NCBI RefSeq assembly: GCF_014930455.1
Contig: NZ_JAAIYO010000003.1
Coordinates: 434,001 to 498,000, forward strand
From: Corallococcus soli
GTDB taxonomy: Bacteria; Myxococcota; Myxococcia; Myxococcales; Myxococcaceae
Direction of reading: 5' to 3'
Length of the DNA: 64,000 nucleotides
Positions 15,389-24,017 of the stretch are shown here, piece after piece. The position numbers and the translations under genes are program-made. Within the stretch, counting starts at the first letter, position 1. Each line of letters opens with the position of its first letter. The notes below the pieces were generated by a model. That model was not told the origin of the DNA and ran no database searches. It was given only the letters and a program-made list of their open reading frames with translations.

Positions 15389-16504
15389 TCAGCTCCGCGT
15401 CCCGGGGCCCCGGTCATACCGGAAGGGGGCCAGGTCCACGGACGGCTTCTCGCCGAGCACCGACTGGGCGACCAGCTTCGCGGTGATGGGGGTGAGGAGG
15501 ATGCCGTTGCGGAAGTGGCCGGTGGCCAGGAAGAGGCCGGGCACGGGCCCCTCCCCGATGTAGGGGAGCGCGTCCCGGGTCCACGGGCGGAAGCCGGCCC
15601 AGGTCTCCGTCACCGGGGCGCTGCCCAGCTCCGGACACAGCTCCAGCGCCATGTCGAGGATCCGCGCCAGCCCCGCCGCCGTCACCTGCTTGTCGAAGCC
15701 CACGTGCTCCATGGTGCTGCCCGCGATGATCCGCCCGTCCGCGCGCGGCACCAGGTAGCCCTTGGCGGACGTCACGATCCGTTCCAGCACGGGCAGCCGG
15801 GTCTGGAGCTGGATCATCTGGCCGCGCGCCGGGCGCACCGCCTGCGCCGCCACGCCCACGCCCTGCACCAGGGACGACCAGGAGCCCGCCGCCAGCACCA
15901 CGGCGTCCGCGCGCAGCACCTCGCCATCCAGGTCCACGCCCACCGCGCGGCCCCCTTCGTGCACCACGCCGCTCACGTGGCCGCTCTTGAACGTGGTCCC
16001 CACGCGCGCGGCGGCCATGGTCAGCGCGCGCACGAGCAGCCGGTTGTCGACCTGGTGATCATCCGGGAAGTGCGCGGCGCCCACGGCCTGGGGTGACAGC
16101 CGGGGCTCCAGCTCGCGCGCGCCCTGTCCGTCCAGCAGCTCCGCGCGCAGGCCCATGCCGTGCTGCCAGCCCACGGTGGACTCCACGTGGTGGTGATCCG
16201 CTTCGTCGAAGGCGACGCGCAGCAGGCCGCACGGCCGGTAGGCGATGTCCACGCCCGTCAGCTCGCGCAGCTCCGCGGCGAAGCTCCCGTAGAGGGCGCG
16301 GCTGCGCAGGCACAGCTCGAAGAAGGGGCCCGGCCCGTCGGACTCCCACTGCGGCGCGAGGATGCCGGCGGCGGCGCTGGAGGCCTCGGCGCCCGGGATG
16401 GAGCGCTCCAGCACCGTCACGCGCGCACCTGCCTGCCGCAGCCGCAGCGCGATGCCGCAGCCCATCAAGCCACCGCCCACCACCAGGACGTCCGAGGTCC
16501 GCAT
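15389..16504 (-). CDS. thiO: Glycine oxidase ThiO (FAD-dependent)
   Basis: The 371-residue flavoprotein of the DAO family oxidises glycine to iminoacetate (dehydroglycine), which feeds the thiazole half of thiamine. VLVVGGGLMGCGIALRL is the N-terminal FAD-binding Rossmann motif. GRIIAGSTMEHVGFD and TWAGFRPWTRDALPYIG are typical of ThiO/glycine oxidase, and the protein ends with GHFRNGILLTPITA. Related D-amino-acid oxidases cannot be fully excluded. It is not clustered with other thi genes. Its start lies 312 bases from hisG, on the opposite strand, across the his leader region. Confidence 0.85.
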   Translation of the reverse strand: MRTSDVLVVGGGLMGCGIALRLRQAGARVTVLERSIPGAEASSAAAGILAPQWESDGPGPFFELCLRSRALYGSFAAELRELTGVDIAYRPCGLLRVAFDEADHHHVESTVGWQHGMGLRAELLDGQGARELEPRLSPQAVGAAHFPDDHQVDNRLLVRALTMAAARVGTTFKSGHVSGVVHEGGRAVGVDLDGEVLRADAVVLAAGSWSSLVQGVGVAAQAVRPARGQMIQLQTRLPVLERIVTSAKGYLVPRADGRIIAGSTMEHVGFDKQVTAAGLARILDMALELCPELGSAPVTETWAGFRPWTRDALPYIGEGPVPGLFLATGHFRNGILLTPITAKLVAQSVLGEKPSVDLAPFRYDRGPGTRS

Positions 16505-16570: not shown

Positions 16571-16599
16571 TTGACGGGAGGGCCTCCGGTCGTTAACCC
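16571..16599 (+). promoter_or_regulatory. Candidate promoter of the his operon
   Basis: TTGACG at 16571-16576 followed after 17 bases by TAACCC at 16594-16599 is the best sigma-70-like pair between thiO and the his leader. The minus 35 box is strong and the minus 10 box weak. Transcription from it would begin near 16606, at the very start of the leader ORF. Confidence 0.4.
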
Positions 16600-16606
16600 T
16601 AGGGGC

Positions 16607-16699
16607 GTGCGTTCCATCTCCGTGCATCATCATCATGCGCATCATCGGCCGGCCCACGACGGGACCGTTCGCCGCGCGCATGCCTGGGTGACGCACTAG
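16607..16699 (+). CDS. hisL: Histidine-rich leader peptide
   Basis: A 30-codon ORF (GTG at 16607, or GTG at 16622) ends with TAG at 16697-16699, about 120 bases before hisG. It contains nine histidines, with the run HHHHAHH at codons 7-13 plus three more near its end. This is the expected design of a leader peptide whose translation senses charged tRNA-His. It is followed immediately by a strong terminator hairpin ahead of the his genes. The function is inferred from composition and position. If the TSS is near 16606, the first GTG would be leaderless. Confidence 0.75.
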   Translation: MRSISVHHHHAHHRPAHDGTVRRAHAWVTH

Positions 16700-16734
16700 A
16701 AGCGCACCTCCTCCGGCAGATGCCGCAGTGATCG

Positions 16735-16766
16735 AAGGCCCGTCCCCCCAGGACGGGCCTTTTTTC
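16735..16766 (+). terminator. his operon attenuator (rho-independent terminator)
   Basis: AAGGCCCGTCC at 16735-16745 pairs perfectly with GGACGGGCCTT at 16751-16761 around a five-base loop, and a run of six U follows. It sits between the histidine-rich leader ORF and hisG, so it would end transcription early when the leader is translated freely. The GACGGG at 16658-16663 inside the leader is complementary to CCCGTC in the left arm and could take part in an alternative pairing. I have not folded the RNA. Confidence 0.85.
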
Positions 16767-16816: not shown

Positions 16817-17674
16817 ATGTTGAAGATTGCCCTGCCCAACAAAGGCCGTCTGTCCGAGGAAGTGCGCGAGCTGTTCAACGACGCGGGCCTGGAGGTCCGC
16901 GGCCGTGGCGAGCGGGCCCTCACCGCGTCCCTGGGCGGCGAGTTCGAGGCCATCTTCGTCCGTGCCCAGGACATCCCGGAGTTCGTCGCGGACGGCGCGG
17001 CGCAGGCGGGCGTCACCGGCTGGGACCTGGTCAACGAGGCGGGCCGCACGCTGGAGTCGCTGATGGACCTGGAGTTCGGCCGCTGCCGGCTGGTGGTGGC
17101 CGCGCGCGACGAGAGCGGCATCACCCGCGTGGAGGACGTGAAGGACGGGATGCGGGTGGCGTCCTGCTTCCCCCGGCTGACGCAGGGCTACTTCCAGCAG
17201 CGGGGCCAGCGGGTGACGGTGGTGCCGGTGAGCGGCGCGGCGGAGATCGCCCCGCACCTGGGCATCGCGGACATCGTGGTGGACCTCACCTCCACGGGCT
17301 CCACGCTGAAGATGAACGGCCTGCGCGAGGTGTCCACGGTGCTGGAGTCCAGCGCCCGGCTGGTGGCGTATCCCGGCAACGGCGCGGACGCGCGGCGCTC
17401 CCTGGAGGAGCTGACCCAGGCGCTGTCGTCGGTGCTGGCGGCGAGGGGCCGGCGCTACCTGATGGCCAACGTGCCCAAGGCGTCCCTGGCGCAGGTGCGC
17501 GAGGTGCTGCCCGGCCTCAACGGCCCCACGGTGGTGGACGTGATGGACGGGGGCAGCTTCGTCGCGGTGCACGCGGTGGTGTCGTCTCGCACCATCTACC
17601 GCACGGTGAACGCCCTGAAGGCCCTGGGCGGGCAGGGCATCCTCGTCACGCGCATCGAGAGGTTGATGGCATGA
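16817..17674 (+). CDS. hisG: ATP phosphoribosyltransferase HisG (long form)
   Basis: First enzyme of histidine synthesis: joins PRPP and ATP. The 285-residue length and the C-terminal region starting near MANVPKASLAQVREVLPG indicate the long, hexameric form with its own regulatory ACT-like domain, so no HisZ is needed. The PRPP-binding segment is the ADIVVDLTSTGSTLKMNGL region. It is the first structural gene after the leader/attenuator, and its TGA overlaps the hisD ATG by four bases (17671-17674). In other organisms histidine inhibits this form allosterically. Confidence 0.96.
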   Translation: MLKIALPNKGRLSEEVRELFNDAGLEVRGRGERALTASLGGEFEAIFVRAQDIPEFVADGAAQAGVTGWDLVNEAGRTLESLMDLEFGRCRLVVAARDESGITRVEDVKDGMRVASCFPRLTQGYFQQRGQRVTVVPVSGAAEIAPHLGIADIVVDLTSTGSTLKMNGLREVSTVLESSARLVAYPGNGADARRSLEELTQALSSVLAARGRRYLMANVPKASLAQVREVLPGLNGPTVVDVMDGGSFVAVHAVVSSRTIYRTVNALKALGGQGILVTRIERLMA

Positions 17675-18975
17675 GCGCCCCCGTCCTGAAGTACCAGGGC
17701 GCCCTGGCCGCCCTGACGTCCGAAGCGCGGCGCCGGCTGCTGGAGCGCGGCGGCGCGGAGTGCGACACGCAGGTGGCCGCCCGCGTCCAGGCGATCATCG
17801 CCCGGGTGCGCGAGGAGGGGGACCGGGCCCTGTTCGACTTCGCGCGCCAGTTCGACCGCGTGGAGCTGGAGGCCCTGGAGGTGCCCCGCGCGCGGTGGGA
17901 CGCGGCGCTGGAGTCGCTTCCTTCCGGGGTGCGCGCGGCGCTGGAGCGCGCGGCGCGCAACATCGCCCGGGCCCACGCGGCGCAGCGGCCCCTGGCGATG
18001 GAGGTGGAGACGGAGCCCGGCGTGGTGGTGGGCCGGCGGCCGGATCCGCTGGGCCGGGTGGGGGTGTACGCGCCCGGCGGCCGGGCGGTGTACCCAAGCA
18101 GCGTGCTGATGGGCGTGGTGCCCGCGAAGGTGGCGGGGGTGGGGGAGACCATCGTCTGCTCGCCGCCGGGGCCGGACGGACTGCCGAGCGCGGGGGTGCT
18201 CGCGGCGGCGGCGCTGGCGGGAGCGGATCGCGTCTTCGCGCTGGGCGGGGCGGGCGCGGTGGCGGCGCTGGCATATGGGACCCGGAGCGTGCCCCGGGTG
18301 GACCGCATCGTCGGGCCGGGCAATGCGTACGTCGCGGCGGCCAAGCTCCAGGTGGTGGACGCGGTCGCCATCGACGCGCCGGCGGGGCCCAGCGAAATCC
18401 TCATCGTCGCCGACGGCAGCGCCCGTCCGGATGCGGTGGCGCGCGAGCTGCTGGCCCAGGCGGAGCATGATCCGGAGGCGTGCTGCGTGGCGCTGGTGCT
18501 GGGCGCGCCGCTCGCGCAGGAGGTGCGGGACGCGGTGGAGCGTCAGGCCCGGGCCGCGAAGCGGGGGGACATCGTGCTGTCGGCGCTCGGGAGCCGGGGC
18601 GCGGTGCTGCGGATCGACTCCCTGGAGGAGGCGTGGCCCTTCGTCGCGGAGTTCGCGCCGGAGCACCTGTTGATCGCGACGGCGACGGCCGAGGACGACC
18701 TGTCGAAGGTGCGCAACGCGGGCACGGTGTTCGTGGGCCAGCGCGCGTCGGTGGCCTTCGGGGACTACCTGACGGGCGCCAACCACGTCCTGCCCACGGC
18801 GGGGCTCGCGCGGGCCTATTCGGGGCTGAGCGTGCTGGACTTCTACCGGTGGACGACGTGGCAGCGCGTGACGCCGGAAGCCGCGGCGGCGATGGCGGAC
18901 GACGTGGGAGCACTTGCGGACAGCGAGGGCCTCTTCGCCCACGCGGACGCGGCGCGGGCCTGGAGGTTGCCGTGA
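17671..18975 (+). CDS. hisD: Histidinol dehydrogenase HisD
   Basis: HisD performs the last two steps, oxidising histidinol to histidine with NAD. The 434-residue length matches the family. YAPGGRAVYPSSVLMGVVPA, the VGPGNAYVAAAK segment, AGPSEILIVAD and EFAPEHLLI (with the catalytic Glu-His pair) are all present. Its start and stop both overlap neighbouring genes by four bases (ATGA with hisG, GTGA with hisC). Confidence 0.97.
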   Translation: MSAPVLKYQGALAALTSEARRRLLERGGAECDTQVAARVQAIIARVREEGDRALFDFARQFDRVELEALEVPRARWDAALESLPSGVRAALERAARNIARAHAAQRPLAMEVETEPGVVVGRRPDPLGRVGVYAPGGRAVYPSSVLMGVVPAKVAGVGETIVCSPPGPDGLPSAGVLAAAALAGADRVFALGGAGAVAALAYGTRSVPRVDRIVGPGNAYVAAAKLQVVDAVAIDAPAGPSEILIVADGSARPDAVARELLAQAEHDPEACCVALVLGAPLAQEVRDAVERQARAAKRGDIVLSALGSRGAVLRIDSLEEAWPFVAEFAPEHLLIATATAEDDLSKVRNAGTVFVGQRASVAFGDYLTGANHVLPTAGLARAYSGLSVLDFYRWTTWQRVTPEAAAAMADDVGALADSEGLFAHADAARAWRLP

Positions 18976-20009
18976 TTCCCTTCCGCGACACGTACCGGGA
19001 CATCCCCCTGTATTCCCCCGCGAGGAAGCGCTGCCGGGTGGACCTGAGCGACAACACCAACCTCTTCGGCGCCCCGCCGTCGGCGGAGCGCGTGCTGCGC
19101 GAGGAGGGGCTCCAGTCCCTGGCGCGCTACCCTGCGAGCTACGCGCCGGACCTGAAGCGCGCCGTGGCCGCCTATGCGGGCGTCGCGGTGGAGAACGTGA
19201 CGACGGGGTGCGGCTCGGATGACGTCATCGACTGCGCGCTGCGCGCGTTCCTGGAGCCGGGGGACGCGGTGGCGTTCCCGGATCCGACCTTCGTGATGGT
19301 GCCGCTGTTCGCCCGGCTGAGCGCGCTGCGGCCGGTGCCGGTGCCCTTGCGGCCGGACCTGGCGCTGGATGTGGACGGGCTGCTCGCGACGGGCGCGAAG
19401 CTGCTCTACGTCTGCACGCCCAACAACCCCACGGGCACGGTGGCCTCGCGCGCGGCGCTGGAGCGGCTGGTGGACCGGGCCCCGGGGGTGGTGGTCATCG
19501 ACCAGGCCTACGTGGAGTTCACCCGGGGAGGGGACTTCCTGGACCTGGCGCGCACGCGGCCCAACGTGCTGGTGACGCGCACGATGTCCAAGGCGTTCGG
19601 CCTGGCCGGCCTGCGGGTGGGCTGGGGGGTGGGGGCCCCTTCGCTGGTGGCGGAGGTGGAGAAGGCCCGGGGGCCGTACAAGCACACGGCGCTGGGCGAG
19701 GCCGTGGCGGTGTCCGCGCTCACGGAGGACACCGCGTGGATGGAGGCCTGCGCGGCGGAGGCGGTGGAGAACCGCGAGCGGCTGCGCGGTGGGTTGAGGG
19801 TGCTGGGCCTGGAGCCCCTGCCCTCGGAAGCGAACTTCCTCCTCGTCCCCGTGCCGGAGGCGCGGCGGGTGGGAGAGGCGATGCGGGAGCGCAACGTGAA
19901 CGTGCGGGTGTTCGAAGGGCTCGCGGGCGTGGGAGATGCGCTGCGCATCGGCAGCGCTCCCTGGCCCCTGATGGCGACGGCGCTCAAGGCGCTCCAGGAG
20001 GCACTGTGA
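18972..20009 (+). CDS. hisC: Histidinol-phosphate aminotransferase HisC
   Basis: A PLP enzyme of 345 residues, aminotransferase fold type I. The PLP lysine is Lys 207 in TMSKAFGLAGLR. YVCTPNNPTGT and the later RVFEGLAGVGDALRIG (phosphate-binding arginine region) are family landmarks. It transfers an amino group from glutamate to imidazole acetol phosphate. The GTG start is fixed by the GTGA overlap with hisD, and its stop overlaps the hisH GTG. Confidence 0.95.
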   Translation: MIPFRDTYRDIPLYSPARKRCRVDLSDNTNLFGAPPSAERVLREEGLQSLARYPASYAPDLKRAVAAYAGVAVENVTTGCGSDDVIDCALRAFLEPGDAVAFPDPTFVMVPLFARLSALRPVPVPLRPDLALDVDGLLATGAKLLYVCTPNNPTGTVASRAALERLVDRAPGVVVIDQAYVEFTRGGDFLDLARTRPNVLVTRTMSKAFGLAGLRVGWGVGAPSLVAEVEKARGPYKHTALGEAVAVSALTEDTAWMEACAAEAVENRERLRGGLRVLGLEPLPSEANFLLVPVPEARRVGEAMRERNVNVRVFEGLAGVGDALRIGSAPWPLMATALKALQEAL

Positions 20010-20602
20010 AGCGGGTGACCCTGTTCGACTATGGCGCCGGCAACCTGCACTCGCTGGCGAAGGCCCTCGTCACGGCGCCGGGCGTGGAGGTGAGCGTGCA
20101 GGAGGATCCGCTGCGCGCGCTCGACACGGACGTGCTGGTGCTGCCGGGGGTGGGCGCCTTCGGCTCGGCGGCGGCGCGGCTGGCCCCGGGGCGCCAGGCG
20201 ATGCGCCGGGCGCTGGACGCGGGCCTGCCCTGCCTGGGCATCTGCCTGGGCATGCAGCTGCTCTTCGAGGAGAGCGACGAGGGGGCGGGCCTGGGCCTGG
20301 GCTACTTCCAGGGCCGGGTGACGCGGCTGACCGCGCGGCAGGTTCCGCAGATTGGCTGGAACGACGTGGAGGAGGACCGGGCGCTGGAGTCCGCGAAGCT
20401 GGCCTCCGTGTACTTCGCGCACAGCTTCGTCTGCCGCGCGGCGGAGCCCCGGGACGTCGTGGGCTGGACGACCCATGAGGATGACCGGTTCCCCGCCTCG
20501 GTCCGGCGCGGGAAGGTGCTGGGCGTGCAGTTCCATCCGGAGAAGTCCTCGCGCGCGGGCGTGCGCTTCGTGCAGGCGTTCCTGGCGGAGGTGGCGCCGT
20601 GA
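20006..20602 (+). CDS. hisH: Imidazole glycerol phosphate synthase glutaminase subunit HisH
   Basis: Class I glutamine amidotransferase subunit of 198 residues. The catalytic triad is visible as Cys 80 (GICLGMQ), His 177 and Glu 179 (VQFHPEKS). It releases ammonia that passes to HisF, encoded three genes downstream. Coupled starts and stops: GTGA at 20006-20009 with hisC and GTGA at 20599-20602 with hisA. Confidence 0.96.
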   Translation: MKRVTLFDYGAGNLHSLAKALVTAPGVEVSVQEDPLRALDTDVLVLPGVGAFGSAAARLAPGRQAMRRALDAGLPCLGICLGMQLLFEESDEGAGLGLGYFQGRVTRLTARQVPQIGWNDVEEDRALESAKLASVYFAHSFVCRAAEPRDVVGWTTHEDDRFPASVRRGKVLGVQFHPEKSSRAGVRFVQAFLAEVAP

Positions 20603-21315
20603 TCGCCATTCCGGCCATCGACCTGCGGGAGGGCGCGTGCGTGCAGCTCGTGGGGGGCTCCTACGCGGAGGAGCGCGTTCGCGTGAATGATCCGCTGGAC
20701 GCACTGAAGCAGTGGCTGGCCCTGGGCTTCCGCACGTTCCACGTCGTGGACCTGGACGCGGCGCTGGGCAAGGGCTCCAACGCGGAGGTGGTCACGCGGC
20801 TGGTGTCGCACGCGCCGGGCCTCACCTTCACGGTGGGCGGCGGCGTGCGCGACGGCGCGCGGGTGGAGGCGGTGCTCGCGGCGGGGGCCTCGTCGGTCGT
20901 CGTGGGCACGCGCGCCATTGAAGACCTCGCGTGGCTCACCGACGTCACCGCGCGCTTCCCGGGGCGGGTGGTGGTGGCCGCGGACGTGAAGGGGCGGGAG
21001 GTGGTGACGCGTGGCTGGACGTCGGGCAGCGCCCGGGACATCCGCGACGTGCTGGCCGCGCTGGAGCCGCTGCCGCTGGGCGGGATGCTCGTGACGGCGG
21101 TGCACAAGGAAGGGCAGCTGGAGGGCGTGGACCTGCCCCTGATGGAGGAGGTGGCTCGCACGGGTCGGCACCGGCTCTACGCGTCCGGGGGCGTGACGAC
21201 CCTGGAGGACCTGCGCGCGCTGGCGAAGGTGGGCGCGCACGGGGCGGTGGTGGGTATGGCGCTGTACACGGGACGACTGGACGCGCGCGCGGTCGCGCAG
21301 GAGTTCGCGGAATGA
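20599..21315 (+). CDS. hisA: ProFAR isomerase HisA
   Basis: A TIM-barrel isomerase of 238 residues that opens the ribose of ProFAR to give PRFAR. The catalytic aspartate is in IPAIDLREG (Asp 8), and the phosphate-binding loops VGGGVRDGARV and YASGGVTTLEDL are present. It starts with GTG overlapping the hisH stop and ends overlapping the hisB ATG. Confidence 0.96.
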   Translation: MIAIPAIDLREGACVQLVGGSYAEERVRVNDPLDALKQWLALGFRTFHVVDLDAALGKGSNAEVVTRLVSHAPGLTFTVGGGVRDGARVEAVLAAGASSVVVGTRAIEDLAWLTDVTARFPGRVVVAADVKGREVVTRGWTSGSARDIRDVLAALEPLPLGGMLVTAVHKEGQLEGVDLPLMEEVARTGRHRLYASGGVTTLEDLRALAKVGAHGAVVGMALYTGRLDARAVAQEFAE

Positions 21316-21863
21316 GCACGGGCACGAGCACGCGGGTCGTCCGGGAGACGAAAGAGACGAAGGTCACGGTGGAGCTGGCGCGCGGTTCGGGGGCGGCCCG
21401 GGTGGACACGGGCCTGAAGTTCTTCGACCACATGCTCGCCACCTTCGCGCGCTACGCGGGGTTGGAGCTGACGCTGCACGCGCGGGGCGACCTGCGCCAC
21501 CACCTGATGGAGGACGTGGCCATCACGCTGGGCACCGCGGTGCAGCGCGTGGTGCCGGCCACGGCGGCGCGCTACGGCGAGCGCACCGTGCCCATGGACG
21601 ACGCGCTGGTGCAGGCGTGCCTGGACGCGGGCGGGCGCTTCTACTACCGGGGGCCGCTGAAGAACCGGCTGTATGAGCACTGGATGCGCTCGTTCTGCGA
21701 GCACTCGCGCATCACGCTGCACCTGCGCGTGCTGCGCGGCCGGGACAGCCACCACCTCACCGAGGCGGCCTTCAAGGCCCTGGGGCTCGCGCTGCGCGAC
21801 GCCATGGTGGACTCCGGCGTCGTCTTCAGCATGAAGGGCAGTGTCTCCCTGGAGGTGACGTGA
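21312..21863 (+). CDS. hisB: Imidazoleglycerol-phosphate dehydratase HisB
   Basis: A monofunctional dehydratase of 183 residues. The two metal-binding motifs HHLMEDVAI and [11 protein letters not shown] are intact. The N-terminal phosphatase domain of the enteric bifunctional HisB is absent, which explains the separate hisN in this operon. The ATG overlaps the hisA stop (ATGA). Confidence 0.96.
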
Positions 21864-22624
21864 TGCTCAGCCGACGGCTCATCGTCTGCCTGGACGTGAA
21901 GGGAGGGCGCGTGGTGAAGGGCGTCCAGTTCGAGGGGCTGCGCGACGTGGGCGACCCCGTGGCGCTGGCGCTGCGCTACGAGGAGGAGGGCGCGGACGAG
22001 GTGACGTTCCTGGACATCTCCGCGAGCGCGGAGGAGCGCGAGACGCTGTGGGACCTGGTCCAGCGCACGGCGGAGCGCCTGTTCATCCCGCTCACCGTGG
22101 GCGGGGGCGTGCGCACGGTGGACGACGTGGCCCGGGCGCTCCGGGCCGGCGCGGACAAGGTGAGCATCAACTCCGCGGCGGTGGCCACGCCGGAGCTGCT
22201 CACCGGCTGCGCGGAGCGCTTCGGCGCCCAGTGCGTGGTGGCGAGCATCGACGCGAAGCGGGACGGCGCCGGCTACCGCGTCTACACGCACGGCGGCCGT
22301 CGCCCCACGGATCTGGACGCGGTGGCCTGGGCGAGGGAGTGCGTGCGGCGCGGCGCGGGCGAGGTGCTGCTCACCAGCATCGACCGTGACGGCGCGCGCA
22401 CGGGCTACGACCTGGGCCTGACGCGCGAGGTGGCGGACGCGGTGGACGTGCCCGTCATCGCCTCCGGCGGCGCCGGCCGCGCGGAGCACGTCCGCGAGGC
22501 GCTGACGCTGGGCGGAGCGGACGCCGCCCTGGTGGCGGGCATCCTCCACGACGGCGTCACCACCGTGGGCGCCCTCAAATCCCTGCTGCGTGACAGCGGC
22601 CTTCCCATCCGGAGCACGACATGA
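21863..22624 (+). CDS. hisF: Imidazole glycerol phosphate synthase cyclase subunit HisF
   Basis: TIM-barrel cyclase of 253 residues that works with HisH. The N-terminal [20 protein letters not shown] carries catalytic Asp 11; [11 protein letters not shown] and [12 protein letters not shown] are the phosphate loops. I placed the start at the ATG at 21863, seven bases after GGAGG at 21851-21855. A GTG at 21860 would add one residue. This is the only junction in the operon that uses TGATG rather than a four-base overlap. Confidence 0.96.
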
Positions 22625-23403
22625 GTGTGGACCCCCGAGACCTGATGGAGGCCGCCGCCGACGTGGCGCGCAAGGCCGGTGACGTGGCGCTGGGCTTCTT
22701 CCGCGGCGGTATCGCCGTGGACATCAAGAGCGACGGAACCCCCGTGACGGTGGCGGATCGCACCGCCGAGTGGACCGCCCGCCAGTGGCTGGAGGAGCGC
22801 TTCCCCCAGGACGGCCTCCTGGGCGAGGAGTTCGGTGAGACGCGGCCGGGCGCGCGGCGCCGCTGGATCTTGGATCCCATCGACGGGACGAAGACCTTCA
22901 TCCGGGGCGTGCCGCTGTGGGGCACGCTGGTGGCGGTGGCGGAGGGCGAGCGCATCCTCGCGGGCGCGGCGTACTTCCCGGCCGTGAACGAGTTGCTCGT
23001 CGCCTCCCCGGGCCTCGGCTGCTTCTGGAACGGCACCGCCGCGCGCGTGTCGACCCAGGATTCGCTGTCCCAGGCCGTGGTGCTGAGCACCGACGAGCGC
23101 TTCCTCCAGAGCCCCACGAAGGGCGCGGCCTGGCGGGAGCTGTCGCGGCAGGCGGCGCTGTGCCGCACCTGGGGCGACTGCTACGGCTACCTGCTGGTCG
23201 CCACCGGGCGCGCGGAGGTCATGGTGGATGAGGGCCTGTCGCCCTGGGACGCGGCGGCGCTGCAACCCATCATCGAGGAGGCCGGCGGCGTGTTCACCGA
23301 CTGGAAGGGGAGCCGCACGGCGTTCGGCGGCGACGGCATCGCCACCAACGCGGCGCTGGCGGCGCGCGTGCGCGACGTGCTGGGCGCGGGAGGCAGGCCG
23401 TGA
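22621..23403 (+). CDS. hisN: Histidinol-phosphatase HisN (inositol monophosphatase family)
   Basis: A 260-residue metal-dependent phosphatase with the family signatures [18 protein letters not shown] and [16 protein letters not shown]. The family includes inositol, PAP and histidinol phosphatases. Its position inside a his operon whose HisB lacks a phosphatase domain makes histidinol-phosphatase the natural role. Overlaps: ATGA with hisF and GTGA with hisIE. Confidence 0.9.
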
Positions 23404-24017
23404 AGCTGGACGTGGCGGCGTTGAACTTCGACAAGGGCCAGGGGCTGGTGACGGTGGTGACGCAGGATGCGCGCACCGGCGACGTCCTGATGGTGGCGCA
23501 CGCGGACCGCGAAGCCCTGGAGCGCACGCTCTCCACGGGAGAAATGCACTACCGCTCCCGCACGCGCGGCCTCTGGCACAAGGGCGCCACCAGCGGGAAC
23601 ACCCAGAAGGTCGTGTCCCTGCGCGCGGACTGCGACGGCGACGCGGTGCTCGCGCGCGTGGAGAAGGCCGGCCCCGCGTGCCACACCGGCGAGGAGACCT
23701 GCTTCGGTGAGGGCCGCTGGGACGCGCTCGCGCACCTGGACGCGACGCTCGCGGCCCGCGCGGATGACTCCGCCCGTGACGGAGCGAAGGCCAGCTACAC
23801 GCGCCGGCTGCTGGACGACCGGAACCTGCGCCTGAAGAAGCTGGGCGAAGAGGCCGCGGAGCTGGTGACGGCCTGCGCGGATGCGGATCCACCCCGGGCC
23901 GCGGAGGAGGCAGCCGACCTGCTCTACCACCTGCTCGTCGCCATCCGCCCGCTGGGGCTCACGCTGGAGGACGTGAAGACCGTGCTGGCGGCCCGCGCAC
24001 AGCCCTCCAAGGGCTGA
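23400..24017 (+). CDS. hisI: Bifunctional PRA-CH / PRA-PH HisIE
   Basis: A 205-residue fusion. Residues about 1-110 are the cyclohydrolase HisI, with [18 protein letters not shown], metal-binding CDGDA and CHTGEETCF. Residues about 120-205 are the pyrophosphohydrolase HisE, with the acidic [12 protein letters not shown] helix and [10 protein letters not shown]. It carries out steps two and three. It is the last gene of the operon. No U-run terminator follows; only a short GGGCT/AGCCC hairpin occurs near 24011. Confidence 0.95.

Follow-up and report, generated by a model that had tools for sequence, protein, structure and literature searches.

A probable ribosome-mediated attenuator with an apparently leaderless histidine leader peptide ahead of the his operon of Corallococcus soli and its relatives

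The his operon of Corallococcus soli is very probably controlled by a ribosome-mediated transcription attenuator in which a leaderless or near-leaderless transcript encodes the leader peptide. The element lies on the plus strand of the window (i.e. the whole 64,000-nucleotide stretch of DNA that was analysed), within the 312-base gap between the divergent thiO gene (15389–16504, minus strand) and hisG. The first-pass annotation had pointed to a 30-codon ORF with nine His codons, including HHHHAHH, followed by a perfect 11-bp terminator with a U-run and then by hisG, and all of these were recovered. The ORF runs from GTG 16607 to TAG 16697–16699 on the plus strand and encodes MRSISVHHHHAHHRPAHDGTVRRAHAWVTH, with HHHHAHH at 16625–16645. 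The terminator pairs AAGGCCCGTCC (16735–16745) with GGACGGGCCTT (16751–16761) around the loop CCCCA, and its T-run occupies 16760–16765. A terminator scan of the window region found one terminator, compared with a mean of 0.2 in shuffled sequence. Downstream of the leader, NCBIfam matches yielded a complete hisGDCHABF-N-IE operon; hisC, hisA and hisB scored below the curated cut-offs and are named as best matches, all in one operon. The features are as follows.

16571–16576, plus strand: predicted −35 box TTGACG (80 of 83 leaders have TTGAC here)
16594–16599, plus strand: predicted −10 box TAACCC, with a 17-nt spacer and 7 nt to GTG (promoter and start mapping in leaders)
16607–16699, plus strand: histidine leader ORF, 30 codons plus TAG, predicted leaderless (His codons differ by T or C in the third base)
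16625–16645, plus strand: regulatory His codons HHHHAHH (relatives keep the His run)
16634–16640, plus strand: 5' arm of the outer (pause) stem, CATGCGC, overlapping the His codons (covarying helix 1 of alignment A4; fold)
16646–16655, plus strand: strand 1, the 5' arm of the inner hairpin, predicted to sequester strand 2 (fold; covarying helices 2–3)
16658–16667, plus strand: strand 2, GACGGGACCG, with strand 1 and the 5' terminator arm as alternative partners (covariation, pairing test, fold)
16676–16682, plus strand: 3' arm of the outer (pause) stem, GCGCATG (covariation; fold)
16735–16745, plus strand: strand 3, the 5' terminator arm and also the antiterminator partner of strand 2 (sequence, pairing test, fold)
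16751–16765, plus strand: strand 4, the 3' terminator arm and U-run (terminator scan; covarying helix 4)
16817–17674, plus strand: hisG, the first gene of the operon (TIGR00070, TIGR03455)
17671–24017, plus strand: hisD, C, H, A, B, F, N and IE, the remainder of the his operon (NCBIfam matches)

We infer the following sequence of events. RNA polymerase would start on GTG 16607 or no more than a few bases away from it, and a ribosome would load directly at the 5' end, unaided by a Shine-Dalgarno sequence. When charged tRNA-His is scarce, this ribosome would stall in HHHHAHH and block the pause stem, and at later His codons also strand 1. Strand 2 (GACGGG), once freed, would form its computed pairing with the 5' terminator arm, presumably before the 3' arm exists, and polymerase would read through into hisG, so that the his genes are on when histidine is low. 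When histidine is plentiful, the ribosome would reach the stop codon at 16697, strand 1 would retrap strand 2, and the terminator at 16735–16765 would form. The default would be off, because the hairpin and terminator are predicted to form without translation as well.

The histidine run and the apparent start of the leader

The His run alone proves little. The pattern CAYCAYCAYCAYNNNCAYCAY occurred twice in the 9.4-Mb genome, exactly as often as its reversed control, so that such a run is rare yet within chance. What places the leader beyond chance is its conservation in front of related hisG genes. A His-rich ORF preceded hisG at every locus whose hisG was at least 63% identical and whose upstream sequence was long enough (one locus with just 20 bases upstream was excluded). 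The carriers comprised Corallococcus, Myxococcus, Pyxidicoccus, Hyalangium, Archangium, Citreicoccus and uncultured Myxococcaceae and, beyond this family, many Gemmatimonadota and several Eiseniibacteriota. Other Myxococcota with distant hisG loci (six loci, identity ≤42%) lacked such a leader. The CAN codons at the His positions among the first eight codons of the run were CAT (270), CAC (193) and CAG (1). Hence, the third base was T or C in 463 of 464 cases, which points to selection for histidine, in a set that was picked for His runs and therefore gives a somewhat inflated count.

The first-pass annotation had also suspected a leaderless start, and the conservation of the promoter-to-start spacing across phyla is consistent with this suspicion. 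In all 83 mapped leaders, drawn from three phyla, the −10 box lay 5–10 nt before an in-frame start codon, and TTGAC was correctly spaced in 80 of them; the distance from the −10 box was exactly 7 nt in 30 of the 39 Myxococcaceae leaders. The mapping script accepted only starts 4–12 nt from the −10 box, so that these 83 leaders are those that fit. They come from 89 distinct leaders with a His cluster, after leaving out one member of a deep Myxococcaceae sub-branch (L072), which had no fitting start, and five whose U-run the script did not recognise. Outside the Myxococcaceae the choice of start was forced, because 42 of the 44 leaders contain just this one in-frame start between the −10 box and the His run. 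A transcript begun 6–9 nt past the −10 box would have its 5' end on the start codon or a few bases from it, with no room for a Shine-Dalgarno sequence. Judged by this promoter spacing, translation of the leader should be leaderless or nearly so. The genetically tractable Myxococcus xanthus carries the element with an ATG start.

Alternative pairings and the computed switch

The structure model, consisting of the outer stem, the inner hairpin and the terminator, was built from 39 leaders in a sequence-only alignment (A2). This alignment contained 23 double-change cells, compared with 7.7 in shuffles, and none of 500 shuffles was as high. A structural alignment of 100 sequences gave 130 double-change cells against 33 in shuffles (0 of 500 reached it), changes on both sides in 15 of 23 pairs, and a drop to 30–51% paired in slid controls, although these numbers lean towards the structure to which the alignment was fitted. 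Its 100 rows include two low-scoring model matches without a His run, which were judged false by eye. From a sequence-only alignment of 69 leaders, RNAalifold recovered the terminator alone, because codon insertions misalign the leader stems; a structure-based alignment was needed to see them. In these alignments the predicted pause stem, inner hairpin and terminator covary.

The paired RNA also accounts for features of the peptide. The His run is broken by Ala or Val because that codon belongs to the outer stem, and GPTG or GPDG is conserved after the run because it lies in the inner stem. There the pairing survives changes of the peptide, as GACC/GGUC, AGCCC/GGGCU and CGCCC/GGGCG in the leader alignment.

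A segment at 16658–16663 had been noted as complementary to the left terminator arm. Indeed, GACGGG at these positions, part of strand 2, matches CCCGTC at 16739–16744, and strand 2 and the 5' terminator arm form at least 6 contiguous pairs in 88 of 91 leaders. Native partners outpaired permuted ones, which did as well in 8 of 2000 cases by number of pairs and in 1 of 2000 by longest helix, in a comparison that leaves relatedness uncontrolled. Covariation support for the antiterminator was modest, because its core hardly varies. In the Myxococcaceae, the segment directly before the terminator, TGCCGCAGTGACCGAA (16717–16736 in the window), showed strong conservation; the computed antiterminator pairs this segment with the end of the leader ORF, which lengthens the helix of strands 2 and 3. 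Three leaders from a deep Myxococcaceae sub-branch (L106, L061 and L072) have a different terminator, of the GACCGGGCCC type, and their strand 2 appears shifted to fit it (GGUCGG with CCGACC).

We folded the transcript of the window as far as the 3' terminator arm, with a ribosome placed on it or absent. Strands 2 and 3 paired with a probability of 0.02 when no ribosome was present. Stalling a ribosome at a His codon raised this value to 0.82–0.84, whichever of the four codons tested was chosen, and with the ribosome at the stop codon it was again 0.02. Means for 39 Myxococcaceae were 0.06 without a ribosome, 0.84 at the best His codon and 0.14 at the stop codon. Their switch index was 0.47, compared with 0.02 when the spacer was shuffled, and 27 of 31 leaders beat every shuffle. 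For 44 leaders from outside the family, the corresponding means were 0.49, 0.90 and 0.48, and 7 of 25 leaders beat every shuffle; the folding contrast in Gemmatimonadota was weak. Outside the Myxococcaceae, the case for the proposed mechanism comes from homology and covariation and not from the fold calculation. Comparing the plain pairing probability of the 5' terminator arm with that in shuffles told us little, since an arm so rich in GC finds a partner in most shuffles, whereas the contrast between ribosome states was informative.

In the complete window transcript, pairing of strands 3 and 4 had a probability of 1.0 in every ribosome state, i.e. the terminator is thermodynamically favoured. 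Since it wins in the full transcript whatever the state, antitermination must be kinetic. Attenuators in general are held to act by timing. Conservation, covariation and the computed ribosome-dependent switch together support the attenuation layout that had been proposed: relatives keep both the His run and the terminator, and the predicted hairpins are mutually exclusive and covary.

Other readings of the same element can be weighed against these results. The attenuator might be the same but be transcribed from a start further upstream, with the ribosome initiating on a longer, ordinary 5' UTR. Two observations would suit such a leadered transcript: the −10 box matches weakly, and the window promoter (−10 = TAACCC) was not called by a strict sigma-70 scan. 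This reading is nevertheless unlikely, given that the −10 box keeps its short distance to the start in every mapped leader of three phyla, nearly always with a well-spaced TTGAC, and that nearly all leaders outside the Myxococcaceae offer no alternative start before the His run.

Two further readings depart from attenuation altogether. Metal binding is possible for His-rich peptides, and many Gemmatimonadota leaders share the motif HGPTGRG, so that the ORF could encode a functional small metal-binding peptide, with the terminator merely ending its transcript. We regard this as highly improbable, because the ORF is located before hisG (once before hisC), the C-termini differ between groups, and the residues that are conserved behind the His run fall within paired RNA and vary together with the pairing (GPTG to DLTG with GACC:GGUC). 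The hairpin could also be a constitutive terminator or operon insulator preceded by a chance ORF. No other element is as conserved as this hairpin, which folds in every ribosome state, but conservation extends to the His codons, the reading frame and the alternative pairings, and the shuffle control was exceeded, which makes this reading the most far-fetched of all. A search of the window region and relatives for leaders and riboswitches known to Rfam, T-box included, returned sub-threshold chance matches only. A ribosome-mediated attenuator with an apparently leaderless start remains the preferred reading.

Distribution and lineage of the element

The first-pass annotation had placed the element ahead of a myxobacterial his operon. 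This holds for the Myxococcaceae but is too narrow, since the element also occurs in Gemmatimonadota and Eiseniibacteriota. A model search was positive in about 70 Myxococcota genomes, mostly with one copy, and all of these were Myxococcaceae except for three weak matches. It was also positive in roughly 90 of 298 sampled Gemmatimonadota genomes (at E ≤ 1e-5) and in 7 of 47 Eiseniibacteriota genomes. Within the C. soli genome, the trpE-like and ilvB-like genes showed no similar leaderless leaders by a crude promoter-plus-start pattern, and leuA gave only a weak match.

The HisG proteins encoded behind the leader formed one supported group (97/93), apart from other Myxococcota HisG, in a tree whose long branches make the wider placement uncertain. 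This single group points to joint transfer of attenuator and operon between phyla. Tentatively, and with slightly more doubt than confidence, we propose that one homologous RNA–peptide element moved with one his operon lineage found in Myxococcaceae, Gemmatimonadota and Eiseniibacteriota, and that loading of the ribosome at the 5' end, often on GTG, is required for the timing between ribosome and polymerase.

Several individual records deserve mention. One Gemmatimonadota genome (G291, contig 210) carries two copies about 9.5 kb apart (401–531 of L184 and 401–531 of L185). The two copies lie in front of hisG and hisC, respectively, as expected if the regulatory element was copied during a split of the operon, and each has an apparent promoter of its own and a start that looks near-leaderless. 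A record titled Comamonas sp. KCTC 72670 (L016, BNCN01000004.1) contains a Myxococcus-like his operon and leader, with a hisG that is 86% identical, and is probably mislabelled. A metagenome-assembled record titled Candidatus Kuenenia stuttgartiensis (L057, CALQGY020000055.1) contains a Gemmatimonadota-type hisG and leader, and is probably misbinned or misnamed.

Relation to known attenuators

Attenuation by a His leader is classic in enteric bacteria. The element resembles enteric hisL (RF00514) in its leader peptide with His codons, mutually exclusive hairpins, U-run terminator and downstream his operon. It differs in its apparently leaderless start, in its sequence, and in the run HHHHAHH, which is interrupted by an Ala codon in a paired stem. 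The RF00514 His_leader model matched neither the window region nor any of 11 relatives, even at E values up to 1.

The first-pass annotation knew of few cases outside the gamma-proteobacteria, which turned out to be inaccurate. According to the excerpted text of PMC9413887, His-leader attenuators had already been predicted in three Firmicutes lineages (the B. cereus group, Peptostreptococcaceae and Erysipelotrichales). As described there, these share the His-leader peptide, the terminator and antiterminator and the location outside the gamma-proteobacteria, and are missed by RF00514 too; they belong to another phylum and have three to five consecutive His codons, and the excerpt does not mention a leaderless start. 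In the open-access literature searched, we found no description for Myxococcota or Gemmatimonadota, although the attenuation surveys of Lyubetsky and colleagues, as far as they are represented by citation in PMC4833913, may list some.

Leaderless leader peptides also feed other attenuators. The trpL transcript of Sinorhizobium meliloti begins at the start codon of the leader ORF (PMC7298713); this system concerns tryptophan, in an alpha-proteobacterium, with an ATG start. In mycobacteria, leaderless short ORFs encoding polycysteine attenuate an operon (Canestrari et al. 2020, as cited in PMC13236596). Compared by this citation only, they likewise combine a leaderless regulatory ORF, a run of a single amino acid and operon attenuation; they differ in relying on cysteine and in belonging to the Actinobacteria.

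The finding of the same switch in two other phyla argues for a variant of the classic mechanism rather than a new mechanism. Its logic is that of known ribosome-mediated his attenuation, while the conserved, apparently leaderless start, the sequence family and the phyla are new. Textbook his attenuation is thereby extended to three groups for which the open-access literature searched holds no description, and a covariance model is supplied that Rfam lacks. Moreover, the element offers a clean natural system to study how a leaderless start, GTG included, sets the timing between ribosome and polymerase that attenuation needs.
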